Below are positions 2,450 to 19,294 of a stretch of 32,196 nucleotides of DNA, piece after piece. The notes under the pieces are model-generated. The model was not told where the DNA came from and searched no databases. It was given only the letters and a program-made list of their open reading frames with translations. The number at the start of each line of letters is the position of its first letter. Within the stretch, counting starts at the first letter, position 1. The position numbers and the translations under genes are program-made. Source of the DNA: a virus; the IMG/VR virus record IMGVR_UViG_3300034107_000379, positions 1 to 32,196 of that record; one strand, 5' to 3'.

Positions 2450-2482
2450 GTTGTTGTGTTGGTTTGTTGTTCTTGCGGATGT

Positions 2483-2800
2483 GCCCGCCCTTGTTCCTTG
2501 CCCAGCCACGCCAAGCCACGTCGCGCCCGGCCGTGCCATGCCCGGCCTCGCCTCGCCAGATTCCATGCCACGCTCATGCCGTGCCCTGCCGCGCCGCGCC
2601 CAGCCTTGCCGGGCCCTGCCATATTCCTTGCCTTGCCGAGTTCGGCCGTGCCTTGCCAAGCCGTGCCAGGCCGCGCCTTGCCATATTCCTTGCCGCGCCT
2701 CGCCCCGCCCCGCCAGGCCTCGCCAAGCCCCGCCAAATTCCTCGCCTCGCTCAAGCCCTGCCATGCCCCGCCGTGCGAAGCCGCGCCCCGCCAAGCCAAA
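2483..2800. repeat. degenerate GCCNN pentanucleotide array 1
   Basis: About 318 bp consist of the pentamer GCC plus two variable bases (GGCNN on the minus strand). The register is interrupted four times by ATTCC-containing units that start at 2555, 2618, 2680 and 2732 (GCC followed by AGATTCC, ATATTCC, ATATTCC, AAATTCC). The left boundary, 2483-2502, matches the boundary of array 2 at 17 of 20 positions. The period of 5 is incompatible with ordinary codon structure and leaves most frames open on both strands. The minus-strand transcript carries GG every five bases, a two-tier G-quadruplex pattern. Confidence 0.9.
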
Positions 2801-2852
2801 ATCCACGCGCCCGAAAGGCACCGCTCCGAATAATGCCTCCGGGGTTGTCATT

Positions 2853-3281
2853 TTAGTCGATCTCCTTTGGTGCAGTCAATGCGGCCAGCTTCATGCGGAT
2901 TGGCAGCGTTGCCAGATGCTGTTGCAGCTTGCGGTTCTCTCCGGTCAGGCGGTTGGTGTCTGTTGTCATTGCCAGACTGCTCGCCCGGAAAATCATTCTT
3001 TTGCCGTAAGTGACTTTGTTCGCAGCCACCGTAATGCGGCGGTCCGGATCGGCCAAGCGGTATCCTTCGCGTGGTTCACACACGAGGTAGATGTTGCGCT
3101 CCCGCATCAAGCGATTGCGGAATGCACCCATGACTGACTGAAAGCGTTTGCTGGTGCGCTCGACGCCGATTGTGTTGGTAATCGCATCGTAGGAGAAAAG
3201 GTCTCCTTCCTGAAGCGGTTTGATCGCATCCATCAGCTTGTTGACGTCGATCTTGGTGGGAATGCCTGTGACTAGGGTCAT
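2853..3281 (-). CDS. hypothetical protein, possible winged-helix type
   Basis: I chose MTLVTGIPTKIDVNKLMDAI as the start because it falls 11 nt after the preceding stop; longer versions overlap that gene. The 142-residue protein has a segment around residues 20-80 (LFSYDAITNTIGVERTSKRF ... EPREGYRLADPD) whose helix-turn-helix-strand pattern could be a winged-helix DNA-binding fold. A basic coiled-coil-like tail follows (NRLTGENRKLQQHLATL). The fold is inferred. The stop lies 1 nt before an ATG that leads into the pentamer array. Confidence 0.7.
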   Translation of the reverse strand: MTLVTGIPTKIDVNKLMDAIKPLQEGDLFSYDAITNTIGVERTSKRFQSVMGAFRNRLMRERNIYLVCEPREGYRLADPDRRITVAANKVTYGKRMIFRASSLAMTTDTNRLTGENRKLQQHLATLPIRMKLAALTAPKEID

Positions 3282-3292
3282 GTGTATAGTGG

Positions 3293-3961
3293 TTAAGGAA
3301 GTTTCGTGATGGTTGCGGTGAAGCGCCCAAACTGGCCGGGTGTCGGTGACGATGGCCGCCAGTCGCCCACCCCGCAAAAGCAGCCGGCGAAAGTCAGGAT
3401 GTGCTGGAGCATCTCCTGCGTGATGCTTGGATCGACCACGGTGAGCGTCCCGCTGGCTGACCAGTTGCTGAAGCGCGGACGCACGCGGACGTGTTTAGAT
3501 GTGCCGACCCTAGCACGCTTCACGAAGAGCACAAAGCCTGCCTCCTGTGCCGCCTTCTCGTGCTCCTCGAACTCGCTCTCCTTGACCATGGCAAGTAGCG
3601 CGTTGCTGTCGATGTTGCGGCCATCGGCCAGGGTGATCGGCCACCCGATCTCATTGCAGATGATGCCAGACTGCGTTTGGGCCTTCATCGAGCCCCGGCC
3701 TGTCGGCGCCGAGCACTTCTTTCCGCCGTCCCGCAGCATCGACATGATGTTGTCGCTGTCGATGACGACCTGCCCGCCGGACGTGTAGAGACACGACAGC
3801 CAGCTCCATGCGGGTGAGCGGTCGTCTCCGGCCACTGACATTTTTTTGTTAGCAGGATCTTTCTGCCATGCCCGCGTCTTGGCGCCGAAGTCGATGTTGT
3901 CTCTGTGCATTAGGAGGTCTGTGGCTCCTGTTAGTGTGACTGCGTAGTTTTTCTGATACAT
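3293..3961 (-). CDS. hypothetical phage protein with GVGDWRP..GRF motif
   Basis: This 222-residue protein begins MYQKNYAVTLTGATDLLMHR and ends with a glycine/aromatic signature, FCGVGDWRPSSPTPGQFGRF, after RVRPRFSNW. The C-terminal pattern resembles uncharacterised phage proteins of the same length that I cannot name precisely. The middle contains GGKKCSAPTGRGSMKAQTQS, a basic glycine-rich loop. It is preceded by pentamer array 2 and an (AC)8 leader. A nucleic-acid role is only a guess. Confidence 0.7.
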   Translation of the reverse strand: MYQKNYAVTLTGATDLLMHRDNIDFGAKTRAWQKDPANKKMSVAGDDRSPAWSWLSCLYTSGGQVVIDSDNIMSMLRDGGKKCSAPTGRGSMKAQTQSGIICNEIGWPITLADGRNIDSNALLAMVKESEFEEHEKAAQEAGFVLFVKRARVGTSKHVRVRPRFSNWSASGTLTVVDPSITQEMLQHILTFAGCFCGVGDWRPSSPTPGQFGRFTATITKLP

Positions 3962-3994
3962 GTTTTTAGTGTTGTTGTGTTGTTACCGTGTTCC

Positions 3995-4010
3995 GTGTGT
4001 GTGTGTGTGT
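3995..4010. repeat. (GT)8 dinucleotide tract
   Basis: Sixteen bases of alternating GT on the plus strand read (AC)8 in the message of the 222-residue gene, 34 nt upstream of its ATG. The tract continues an A/C-only leader (AACAACACAACAACAC). It could be prone to slippage, but no reading frame crosses it, so the effect would be on translation initiation rather than frame. Confidence 0.85.
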
Positions 4011-4024
4011 TTGCTGGTTGTGAC

Positions 4025-4121
4025 GCCAGCCCAAGTTCCTTGCCTTGCCGGGCCAAGCCGAGCCGCGCCCAGCCGCGCCCAGCCCGGCCCTGCACTGCCG
4101 CGCCCAATTCCAAGCGTTCCC
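4025..4121. repeat. degenerate GCCNN pentanucleotide array 2
   Basis: About 97 bp of the same GCCNN pentamer as array 1, in the same orientation. It begins with a boundary (GCCAGCCCAAGTTCCTTGCC) that is nearly the same as in array 1, and ends with CCCAATTCC, again an ATTCC unit. It lies between two genes, upstream of a gene on the minus strand, as array 1 does. The remaining intergenic sequence to 4213 shows a short coding-like stretch but no start codon. Confidence 0.9.
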
Positions 4122-4972: not shown

Positions 4973-5110
4973 TTATGGTTGTTTCACGATGCGGCTAAGT
5001 ACAATGCGGAGGAACACGCTGACCGGCATGTTGACCTCTTTTGCAGCGGCTCTGAGCTTGTCCCGCAGCTCCTTTGTGCAGCGCAGTGTGATGATTGTGT
5101 CGTTCTGCAT
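4973..5110 (-). CDS. ribbon-helix-helix (Arc/CopG-like) regulator
   Basis: A 45-residue frame starts MQNDTIITLRCTKELRDKLR. It has the ribbon-helix-helix layout: a beta strand (TIITLRC), helix A (TKELRDKLRAAAKEV), the NMPVS turn and helix B (VSVFLRIVLSRIV). Arc/CopG-family proteins of this size dimerise and bind operators through the strand. It is the first gene after the late-block terminator and has a promoter-like sequence that would place the transcript start next to the ATG. It probably regulates the left-arm unit. Confidence 0.75.
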   Translation of the reverse strand: MQNDTIITLRCTKELRDKLRAAAKEVNMPVSVFLRIVLSRIVKQP

Positions 5111-8686: not shown

Positions 8687-9346
8687 TTAAGGATTGGCGA
8701 TGACGGCTGGCACGGAATAGCTCTGACCATTGGCCGTAACGATTAGCATTTCGTCGATAACGACGACGCTTGTGTCAATCGGGCCGAACGTGGGGTCAAG
8801 CACCGCATCGTAGCTGTAGAGGATGCCGTTGTAGACGAACGACGCGACATCATCAATCACCCGGTAATCTGTGGAAGTTGTGGCTGCCCCAGCAATCACG
8901 TCAAAGCTGTAGGTTGTTCCGCTGAAAACGTAAGAAGCCACGCCGTTGACTACTGTGAACGTGATGGCTGTGTCTGGTTGCAAAGATAGAGCGGATGGCT
9001 TGATCTCCAGATTACCAGCACGCAGCGAGTATGGAAACCCATCCGCATCAAGTCCGCCAATCACGATCCAGAAATTGTTGGAGTTGACCTGATTGTTTAG
9101 CGTTTGGTCCATTTGCGCCGCGCTGAACGTGAAAGTCACGTTTGCTCCTGACACGATGCCCGCCGTAGAAGCGAGAGGAAGAGCACCAACGCTGCCGCTC
9201 TCGTGTGGCCGCTTCCATAGCTCCATCCGATACGATGCCATCGCCGGACCACTAGCTGGAATCGGCGCCGTGATGACCAATGGCGTAGTTGCAAAGACCG
9301 GAGCCAGCCCAAGGTCGTCGGTGGTTGGAATGATGGAAATTGTCAT
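8687..9346 (-). CDS. virion protein with three imperfect C-terminal repeats
   Basis: I chose MTISIIPTTDDLGLAPVFAT as the start because it overlaps the endolysin stop (ATGA). The 219-residue protein has an N-terminal beta domain and three imperfect C-terminal repeats recognisable by VASYVFSGTTYSFD, VASFVYNGILYSYD and a weaker LIVTANGQSYSVP. Repeats of this kind often carry binding surfaces in fibres or baseplate proteins. Exact role unknown. Confidence 0.75.
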   Translation of the reverse strand: MTISIIPTTDDLGLAPVFATTPLVITAPIPASGPAMASYRMELWKRPHESGSVGALPLASTAGIVSGANVTFTFSAAQMDQTLNNQVNSNNFWIVIGGLDADGFPYSLRAGNLEIKPSALSLQPDTAITFTVVNGVASYVFSGTTYSFDVIAGAATTSTDYRVIDDVASFVYNGILYSYDAVLDPTFGPIDTSVVVIDEMLIVTANGQSYSVPAVIANP

Positions 9347-9903
9347 CGTGTGGCTTGAAAATGCATGCTGTCGCGGGACCAATAAGCGCCGCCCGACAAC
9401 CATCCTTCATCAGCAAAGTACTCCATGACTTCGAGCGGCATGGATGCGTCGGTTGGCCAGACAGTGTTATTGCCGTTTGATCCTGCCATTAAGTCAATCG
9501 CAGCGCCCCACGCATGTAAGCTCTTGCGGCTGCCTCCGCGCATGTTGCGGTTGTTGTAGCAACCGGCGTATTGCTTGAGCACGTATGGATGCGTCTTGCT
9601 GATTGCCGTCAGCACGCGATGCAGACTGGATGCGACGCGCGTGTGGCAGCGGATAGTCTTTACTGCTTGGCTCTCGTAGTGCACGCCCAAGTCAGCCACC
9701 GATAGATTTACTAGATTGCTCTCGTCACCCGGCTGGCCGTAAAATGCGATCAGTGAGGCCTCGTCCTGTTTTGGCCATTGCACTGGCACCGGGAGCAAAC
9801 TATCAAGATGCTTCTTGCAGGCTGCACGCGACATCGGCCCCCACACGCCGTCAGGATATGCGCCGATCTTTTCTTGGATCAGTTGGATGTCGTGCTTGGT
9901 CAT
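9343..9903 (-). CDS. M15-family peptidoglycan peptidase (endolysin)
   Basis: The 186-residue protein cleaves cell-wall peptides at lysis. Residues 1-35 resemble a peptidoglycan-binding repeat (LIQEKIGAYPDGVWGP). The catalytic core shows SLHAWGAAID at 128-137, matching the SxHxxGxAxD zinc motif of M15 D-Ala-D-Ala carboxypeptidases, with zinc ligands H130 and D137, and DSMHFQ with the third ligand H181 near the C-terminus. I chose MTKHDI because it overlaps the preceding stop (ATGA). There is no signal peptide, so a holin is needed for access; neighbouring genes supply candidates. Confidence 0.9.
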   Translation of the reverse strand: MTKHDIQLIQEKIGAYPDGVWGPMSRAACKKHLDSLLPVPVQWPKQDEASLIAFYGQPGDESNLVNLSVADLGVHYESQAVKTIRCHTRVASSLHRVLTAISKTHPYVLKQYAGCYNNRNMRGGSRKSLHAWGAAIDLMAGSNGNNTVWPTDASMPLEVMEYFADEGWLSGGAYWSRDSMHFQATR

Positions 9904-11706: not shown

Positions 11707-12459
11707 TTAAGAGCCTAGAACCAAAATGTTTACGTTGAGCCCAGTTGTTCCGTTAAGAAGAACGGTCAGCGTTTGAGAGGTTGCCGATTTCCTGCCGGTC
11801 GGCGTGCTGTAGATAAATGAGCCACCCTCGTAAATTGGCAGCGGAACCGACGTGTTGGTCACAACTCCACCGAATCCGTCGCTCTTGATCTGCGCGCAGA
11901 TGAGGCCGGTGATGGTCCAGTCGGCCAAGGTGCCAGTTCCGCCAATCGTGTCCACCGCCACTGCCAGTGTGGTCGAGCTGTAGCTGCTGACAACGCCTTC
12001 CATGAAGTTTGCAGCGTTGGCTGCCGAGGTAGCGCGAACCCGCTGCCCGACGATGTAACCAAGCCCGGCTGCTACGGTAAAGCTCTTTGATGCAACCTCG
12101 ATGGCTAGCGAAGTTGTAGAAGTTGCGGTCGGACGAACGGAAGCCGGAGCGACTGCTGGGTCGCGGCGGGTCACGGTAATATAAAGCCCGCGCCAGTAGT
12201 TGAACGCCAAGGTGGCATTCGTGATTGGATTCGTGAGAGCGACCGCCGTCCCTCCTGCCAGCACCGAGTTAACCGTTGTGCCGCTAGTCGCTAGAGTGTT
12301 GGCGCTCGTGGTGCTGTTGCCGTATACCTCAAACACACCAGAAATCAAACCTTCTTCACGCACGACCGAATCCGGCACTTGCTGAGTTGCGGAGGGGATG
12401 ACCGAGTTGCCCGGATAGCTGTTTTGCGCTTTAAGCGTCAACGCGAAGATGTTCGGCAT
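11707..12459 (-). CDS. virion structural protein, longer paralogue
   Basis: This 250-residue protein opens MPNIFALTLKAQNSYPGNSV and shares the QNSY...VPD N-terminal motif with the next gene. The remainder is Thr/Ser/Ala-rich beta sequence with an aromatic patch (FNYWRGLYITVTRR). Position after the glycine-rich tail proteins suggests tail-tip or fibre network. It has few charged residues, as expected for an exposed beta-structured protein. Confidence 0.7.
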   Translation of the reverse strand: MPNIFALTLKAQNSYPGNSVIPSATQQVPDSVVREEGLISGVFEVYGNSTTSANTLATSGTTVNSVLAGGTAVALTNPITNATLAFNYWRGLYITVTRRDPAVAPASVRPTATSTTSLAIEVASKSFTVAAGLGYIVGQRVRATSAANAANFMEGVVSSYSSTTLAVAVDTIGGTGTLADWTITGLICAQIKSDGFGGVVTNTSVPLPIYEGGSFIYSTPTGRKSATSQTLTVLLNGTTGLNVNILVLGS

Positions 12460-13357: not shown

Positions 13358-14240
13358 GAGAGCTGATAAAGGTAGCTGCTGGCAGCGTTATGTGATAAGA
13401 CCCGGCGTGGTACTGCGTCACCACTCCGTCAGTCTGTGACGCGATGCGAACGTAAATGTTGGTCGCTGGCGATGCGGTTGGCTTGGTTGCAGAGACGACA
13501 AGGCTGGCCGATGTGACCTGCCAGCGGCGAAAGACCATCAAGAGCGTTGTGTAGTGCGTAAACGATTTGACCTGTCCGTCGCCACCCGCACCCCCGTCTC
13601 CTCCGTCGCCACCTTCTGCTGGCGTGCCTGAGTTCTCATAAAAGCTATCTCCTCCGCCGCTTCCTACGCCCGGACCGCCTGGAGTTTGACCGGATGCGGA
13701 CTCTCCAGTCATACCAGAATAGCCCGCAGTTCCTTGGCCGCCGCCGCCGCCGCCGCCCGCATCACCCCCCGCACCCCCGCCGCCGGTCGTGACGGAAAGT
13801 GTTGTCGCGCCCGTCGATGAGAGCGTTCCGCTCATGTTTGCGTCGGTCTGCGATAACTGAATGCGAAGCCACACGCTGCTGCCAGACGGAACCGATAGAG
13901 TGGTCGGTCCAATGCTCGCTTGTTGTGCCAGCCAGTTTGTCGGCAGAGGGTTGCTCATAGTCGGAGTACCCCACTCGATGCCGTAGACCTTGCCCGCCGT
14001 AATGTCTAGCGTGTTAAATCCCGGCGACGTTGCCTTGAAGTCGTGATTGATGGCGACCGTTGGCGCGGGCTGCGTCTCTTGGTCAGCGTGCAGCAAAATC
14101 CCGGCATTGGTTTCCTCTAACCGCATGTTGGCGCCTTCGATCGGCGTCTGCATCTTGATGCGCCGCACGATCTTCTCTAGCGTTTTGCCAGTCAGAACGT
14201 ACACGTCGCCAAGATTGAAGTTGGGAATGTCCGGCAGCAT
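13347..14240 (-). CDS. glycine-rich tail-tip protein, paralogue B
   Basis: This 297-residue protein opens MLPDIPNFNLGDVYVLTGKT and has the same layout as its neighbours: the LEETNAGILL strand near residue 40, a VYGIEWGTP segment, a glycine-rich middle (GGGGAGGDAGGGGGGGQG) and an end LPAATFISSLVS. It starts on a TAATG overlap with paralogue A. Likely a tail-tip or adhesin subunit. Confidence 0.8.
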   Translation of the reverse strand: MLPDIPNFNLGDVYVLTGKTLEKIVRRIKMQTPIEGANMRLEETNAGILLHADQETQPAPTVAINHDFKATSPGFNTLDITAGKVYGIEWGTPTMSNPLPTNWLAQQASIGPTTLSVPSGSSVWLRIQLSQTDANMSGTLSSTGATTLSVTTGGGGAGGDAGGGGGGGQGTAGYSGMTGESASGQTPGGPGVGSGGGDSFYENSGTPAEGGDGGDGGAGGDGQVKSFTHYTTLLMVFRRWQVTSASLVVSATKPTASPATNIYVRIASQTDGVVTQYHAGSYHITLPAATFISSLVS

Positions 14241-18808: not shown

Positions 18809-19294
18809 TTACTGTTCCGTGGTCGCACAAACCACGGTGAAACTGTACTCGGTTGAAATCTCGTCTTCGCTCATCGTTCCGTTGGCCTGAGATTTTGCAT
18901 ACATCTTGACGACGTAAATATCCTCTCCGTTGTCGATGGCGTTGATCGCATCAGGTAATGACAAACCATTCCAGACGCCAAAGAGTCGCGCACTCAGATT
19001 CTCAGCCCGTAGCTCGTGCCTAGGACGTGTGTCGCTGCCGAACGTCTGGTTTGCCTCTTCTCTGTCCTCGACCATGGCAACAGTGATCCCGACGCGAAAA
19101 GCGTTGGTGCCCGGAAAGACTTCCTGATTGTCTGTGGCCTGCACTGAAAAAAACGGATATTTCTCCTGTGTGAACTCTCGTCCATTGCGCGCAGAAAAGC
19201 CTAGGAACAACGGAAGCGAAATAAGGTCATTCGTGAGAATGGTACAGATGCGCCGTTGCAGCCTGTCGCCGGGATTGATTGGATACGTGTTCAT
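18809..19294 (-). CDS. tail terminator-like protein
   Basis: This 161-residue protein (MNTYPINPGDRLQRRICTIL...) has the start-helix plus mixed beta/helix pattern of the gpU-like minor tail proteins: a helix, then FFSVQATDNQEVFPG and a central FRVGITVAMVED strand. Position after the gpZ-like protein supports it. It ends in a beta strand (EYSFTVVCATTEQ). Family assignment is by synteny. Confidence 0.68.
   Translation of the reverse strand: MNTYPINPGDRLQRRICTILTNDLISLPLFLGFSARNGREFTQEKYPFFSVQATDNQEVFPGTNAFRVGITVAMVEDREEANQTFGSDTRPRHELRAENLSARLFGVWNGLSLPDAINAIDNGEDIYVVKMYAKSQANGTMSEDEISTEYSFTVVCATTEQ

Follow-up and report, generated by a model that had tools for sequence, protein, structure and literature searches.

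GGCNN arrays in an uncultivated phage as a further example of VIPR with a compact layout

The window analyzed here is the whole stretch of 32,196 bases of an IMG/VR phage record that encodes terminase, portal, major head, tape-measure and tail-fibre genes. It contains two arrays of GGCNN repeats, array 1 (2498–2804) and array 2 (4040–4111), both on the minus strand, and two minus-strand genes lie between them. There are 23 occurrences of the pattern (GGCNN)4GGC, every one of them within these two arrays and on the minus strand, and it was absent from 100 dinucleotide-preserving shuffles of the window. An earlier note, made from the letters alone, had described both arrays on the same strand, four ATTCC units at intervals of 63, 62, and 52 bp in array 1 and a match at 17 of 20 positions between the boundaries of the two arrays. 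The positions, the strand and the ATTCC intervals were all recovered in the present analysis, and so was, exactly, the boundary match of 17 of 20. The note also placed the arrays upstream of two genes, which is accurate as to position, and drew no link to the two genes enclosed by the arrays.

Read on the minus strand, array 1 is composed of five units that open with GGAWTNT and close at the next GGA, and array 2 of one unit. These units are the candidate vrRNA guides g1 (2742–2804, 63 nt; NN: TT GG GC TT AC GG AT AG TT GA GA), g2 (2690–2741, 52 nt; NN: GG TT GA CT GG GG GA GC AA), g3 (2628–2689, 62 nt; NN: AA GC CT AC TT AA AC CG TC AA AA), g4 (2565–2627, 63 nt; NN: AG CC AA TG GC GC AG AC AT GT AT), and g5 (2498–2564, 67 nt; NN: GA GA CG AT AC CG GC GT TT GT TG AA) in array 1, and g6 (4040–4111, 72 nt; NN: GC AG AG CG TG GC TG GC TC TT CC AA AA) in array 2, upstream of vipr. 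They comprise 11, 9, 11, 11, 12, and 13 repeats, respectively. Within array 1 only a short junction separates neighboring guides; four junctions are GGAAT (ATTCC on the opposite strand), spaced by 52, 62, and 63 nt, and two variants missed by the earlier note, GGATTTT and GGAAC, occur at the 5' and 3' ends.

Over the 65 regular repeats the first three positions are G in 62, G in 63, and C in all 65, and the two N positions have entropies of 1.89 and 1.99 bits, near the maximum. Several guides include a 4-nt GAGC unit located one to three repeats before the 3' end. Of the last NNs ahead of a junction, 82% are AA or AT (34 guides of this phage group) vs. 17% elsewhere, a bias which suggests that this NN probably belongs to a fixed 3' boundary. 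Each array is followed by a conserved 3' tail on the minus strand, namely GGAACAAGGGCGGGCACATCCGC (2475–2497) after array 1, which is kept among sister phages and has a 4-bp hairpin, and GGAACTTGGGCTGGCGTCACAACCAGC (4013–4039) after array 2, with a 5-bp hairpin; both hairpins are weak (z of -1.1 to -1.7). Structured or hairpin tails showed no enrichment downstream of arrays in general.

The gene vipr (3293–3961, minus strand) encodes a protein of 222 aa that belongs to phrog_4652, a family of unknown function, and had no match in Pfam or PADLOC. It is a Vipr homolog by sequence comparison: phmmer relates it to the "SUSP1 Vipr protein" chain of PDB entry 36pp (1.3e-10, and 2.7e-46 with a profile of 65 homologs), and tblastn to the genome of phage SUSP1 (3e-11, 26% identity over 95% of the length). 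The predicted structure (AlphaFold2, pLDDT 95.2) has a RAMP fold, and its nearest Foldseek neighbors are subunits of type VII and type III (Csm) CRISPR effectors. A glycine-rich loop is present (GVGDWRP...GRF), which aligns with CGVGDWRP...FGRF of SUSP1 Vipr; G193, G197, G199, R202, and G212 are nearly or fully invariant across the 65 Vipr sequences. The second enclosed gene is a vap-like accessory gene (2853–3281, minus strand; phrog_5926) whose 142-aa product is related to the protein encoded by the gene that adjoins vipr on its downstream side in SUSP1 (phmmer, 7.8e-8). According to its model (AF2, pLDDT 89), with a winged-helix part for which the best Foldseek matches are weak ones to OmpR-type DNA-binding domains (E of 0.06), it looks like a winged-helix DNA-binding protein.

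VIPR, a relative of CRISPR carried by viruses, was described in 2026 (preprint PMC13142463). In these systems the phage-borne RAMP protein Vipr, of about 20 kDa and with a glycine-rich loop that is conserved, binds vrRNAs of 9–16 repeats, each made of a constant GGY and a variable NN; DNA recognition by the vrRNAs follows a one-base-skip rule and leads to gene silencing (PMC13142463). Further marks of VIPR are a vap gene beside vipr and, at the 3' end of each guide, an invariant structured tail. Seven VIPR types were distinguished, the system of Escherichia phage SUSP1 representing type II, and the layout variants include "staggered arrays with overlapping vrRNAs" (PMC13142463). The minus-strand locus at 2475–4111, comprising a guide, vipr, the vap-like gene and an array of five guides in the SUSP1 order, is very probably (about 0.93) a VIPR system that would operate as proposed in the preprint. 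The identification of the arrays as VIPR guides follows from several features seen directly in the window and in other viruses, i.e., the identity of Vipr, the accessory gene, the synteny, the co-occurrence of arrays with vipr, and the form and fast turnover of the guides. The window arrays thereby add a new example to an already described system; the phage that carries them is uncultivated, and their layout is compact.

In SUSP1, one GGY-NN guide lies upstream of vipr and more are found downstream of the accessory gene, and the window shares with it this order of guide, vipr, accessory gene and guide array, the homologous Vipr and accessory gene, and GGY-NN repeats numbering 9–16 per guide. 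The two systems differ in that the third base is C in the window and mostly T in SUSP1, in that consecutive window guides are joined by nothing more than an AWGGAATNT junction whereas SUSP1 guides have a long separate tail, in the number of downstream guides (five vs. three) and in the 4-nt GAGC units that several window guides have close to their 3' end. Both window proteins are homologous to those of SUSP1 by sequence comparison, and the window system may belong to type II. Subunits of Class 1 CRISPR systems (type III-A Csm, type VII) resemble Vipr in their RAMP fold, conserved glycine-rich loop and guide-RNA partner; in contrast to them, the window locus is devoid of a cas operon and of exact repeats and spacers, and guide information resides in every NN. 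A CRISPR array was also considered for the window and discarded, as the window array lacks exact repeats with unique spacers and is built of 5-bp units with variable NN, and none of three proteins tested matched a defence family (PADLOC).

By analogy with the preprint (PMC13142463), the arrays would be transcribed and the RNA would assemble with multiple Vipr subunits into a ribonucleoprotein in which each GGC holds one subunit, i.e., one Vipr per repeat. The NN pairs would then base-pair with DNA with one base skipped after each pair (NNxNNx...), and binding would result in the silencing of genes in a competing phage, prophage or satellite.

The association between arrays and vipr was surveyed in viral contigs using the pattern (GGCNN)8 alone, independently of the preprint, which yielded at least 114 loci with arrays of varied NN. 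Loci L046, L055, L097, L102, L110, and L129, some of which are plain simple repeats rather than guides, were left out as they contain no run of at least eight repeats with at least four different NNs. Among the matches listed, 84 of the 114 viral loci encode a Vipr homolog, the arrays are on the same strand as vipr in 274 of 281 instances (274:7) and the median distance from vipr to the nearest array is 51.5 bp; no Vipr homolog was detected in the 44 control viral loci. The 30 loci without vipr among the matches listed include 15 in which the array lies within 1.5 kb of the locus end. As a simple sequence motif, (GGCNN)8 can find VIPR loci in bulk, with at least 114 viral loci that have varied arrays; the pattern initially applied to the genome collection had returned nine chance matches lacking arrays and one true relative, L022. 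In about 15 viral loci of the series L030–L149, (GGCNN)n arrays with varied NN lie well away from the locus ends and the profile finds no Vipr; these may be orphan arrays, or the loci may encode a divergent Vipr type.

Sister phages, found through their terminase (64 contigs, many of them 98% identical), carry the VIPR site between the same flanking genes, A and B, and these near-identical phages supply a comparison set of full systems, guide-only loci and empty loci. The arrangement array, vipr, vap, array is present in the window phage and in G010, G022, and G038. At the same locus G008 (L241) contains one array of two guides (19064–19193), both G023 and G024 a guide with 19 repeats (at 12086–12178 in G024, L247), and G026 (L250, about 5040–5110) and G042 (L257, about 13870–14079) a single guide with eight NNs in common. 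The Vipr profile identified no vipr among the fetched ORFs of G008, G023 (a 30-kb fragment), G024, G026, and G042. L022 has one array of four guides in the 3.6 kb examined, and G035 has no array at the VIPR site. In G037 (L255, about 8850–9700) a different gene followed by an array remnant is located between A and B, so that the site looks like an exchange hotspot. The orphan arrays start as array 2 and end as array 1, a pattern that would fit loss or gain of vipr and vap, which could occur by recombination between the flanking arrays: the two genes could have been removed by recombination between both arrays, or could have entered a single array.

Guides turn over faster than the genes they accompany. 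Nucleotide identity in vipr and vap is 88–95% across the four phages that have a complete system, and only one guide is recognizably common (g1 of the window and its counterpart in L151, which agree at 86% of their NN bases); this pair differs at four places, three of which are NN positions. This turnover beside conserved genes raises the question of how new VIPR guides arise when there is no adaptation gene, and the guide-only phages that of whether guides work in trans or have an inhibitory role.

The guide-only phages also bear on a reading in which the arrays are Vipr-independent RNA decoys that titrate the Vipr of other phages, an RNA anti-VIPR comparable to the Racr RNA anti-CRISPRs. Such decoys would fit the contigs of G008, G023/G024, G026, and G042, in which this locus has an intact array or a single guide and no vipr is detectable; yet the window phage and three sisters have complete vipr and vap genes between their arrays, and the diversity of the NNs suggests targeting, which a decoy does not need, so that for the window arrays this role is improbable. 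For the orphan arrays themselves, functions of their own can be proposed only tentatively and are rather unlikely: they might act in trans by loading Vipr from another phage, either co-resident or co-infecting, or poison the Vipr of a rival as RNA anti-VIPRs. Like Racrs (PMC10651486), they are solitary guide-like RNA units that phages carry and that have no effector with them, but Racrs differ in mimicking CRISPR repeats; the decoy role of orphan VIPR arrays is putative and drawn by analogy.

The remaining alternatives take the arrays as something other than guides. The earlier note had regarded them as strand-oriented, homologous, non-coding sequences with a minus-strand transcript and, as one option, an RNA-binding protein partner, all of which agrees with the VIPR reading (the transcript by analogy), and had further suggested G-quadruplexes, structural leaders or a mobile repeat, which were not supported. 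RNA G-quadruplexes or structured 5' leaders regulating the downstream genes would account for a GG every five bases and for the position of each array just upstream of a start codon. G pairs alone would suffice for a quadruplex, however, and this leaves unexplained the fixed junctions and the C found in all 65 repeats, at a position where SUSP1 also has a pyrimidine; the arrays track vipr, those of sister phages precede different genes, which does not suit a leader specific for the two downstream genes, and no Rfam match was found. Such a role is accordingly very unlikely. A mobile or selfish repeat family, which could explain arrays of differing lengths in many phages, is more doubtful still, since the window has no copy outside the VIPR locus, arrays stay at the short median distance from vipr given above where that gene is present, and neither terminal repeats nor target duplications were observed. 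The idea that the array encodes a repetitive, low-complexity protein can practically be dismissed: ORFs of 118–237 aa do span it, but a five-base rhythm rarely makes a stop codon, which explains their length, and several frames are open on both strands. Moreover, the five-base unit keeps no frame, unit lengths of 52–67 nt vary by non-multiples of three, and the bases that vary are those of the fixed NN positions rather than the third positions of codons.

With the arrays taken as VIPR guides, targets were sought in several collections. Searches with skips of 0, 1, 2, and 3 revealed no target excess over shuffled guides in the sister-phage contigs (about 1.5 Mb) or in the other fetched loci. 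In IMG/VR, g6 (20 bases) had one match, in L261, which is out of codon phase and is not extended by the flanking repeats, g5 (18 bases) had none, and g1 and g4 (16 bases) had 21 and 22, none extending. The g1 matches, mostly in frame and several of them in a tail-fibre-like C-terminal motif, were considered as targets and set aside as coincidence. For g5, 286 genomes from the class to which an Opitutaceae MAG belongs gave 7 matches vs. 6 control matches. Natural targets were thus not found in these collections, from which the right host and rival phages may be absent.

The window terminase is similar to the terminase of Verrucomicrobia phage P8625 and to those of prophages in 51 of the 286 genomes, which cover one class only, that of the Opitutaceae MAG. 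The range of VIPR is thereby extended to an uncultivated phage lineage, possibly one of Verrucomicrobiota. Elsewhere in the window, positions 263–314 contain 4.7 copies of an 11-bp unit, GTTTAATTAGT, and a related repeat, AATTAAACACG, occurs in L022 near the same genes.
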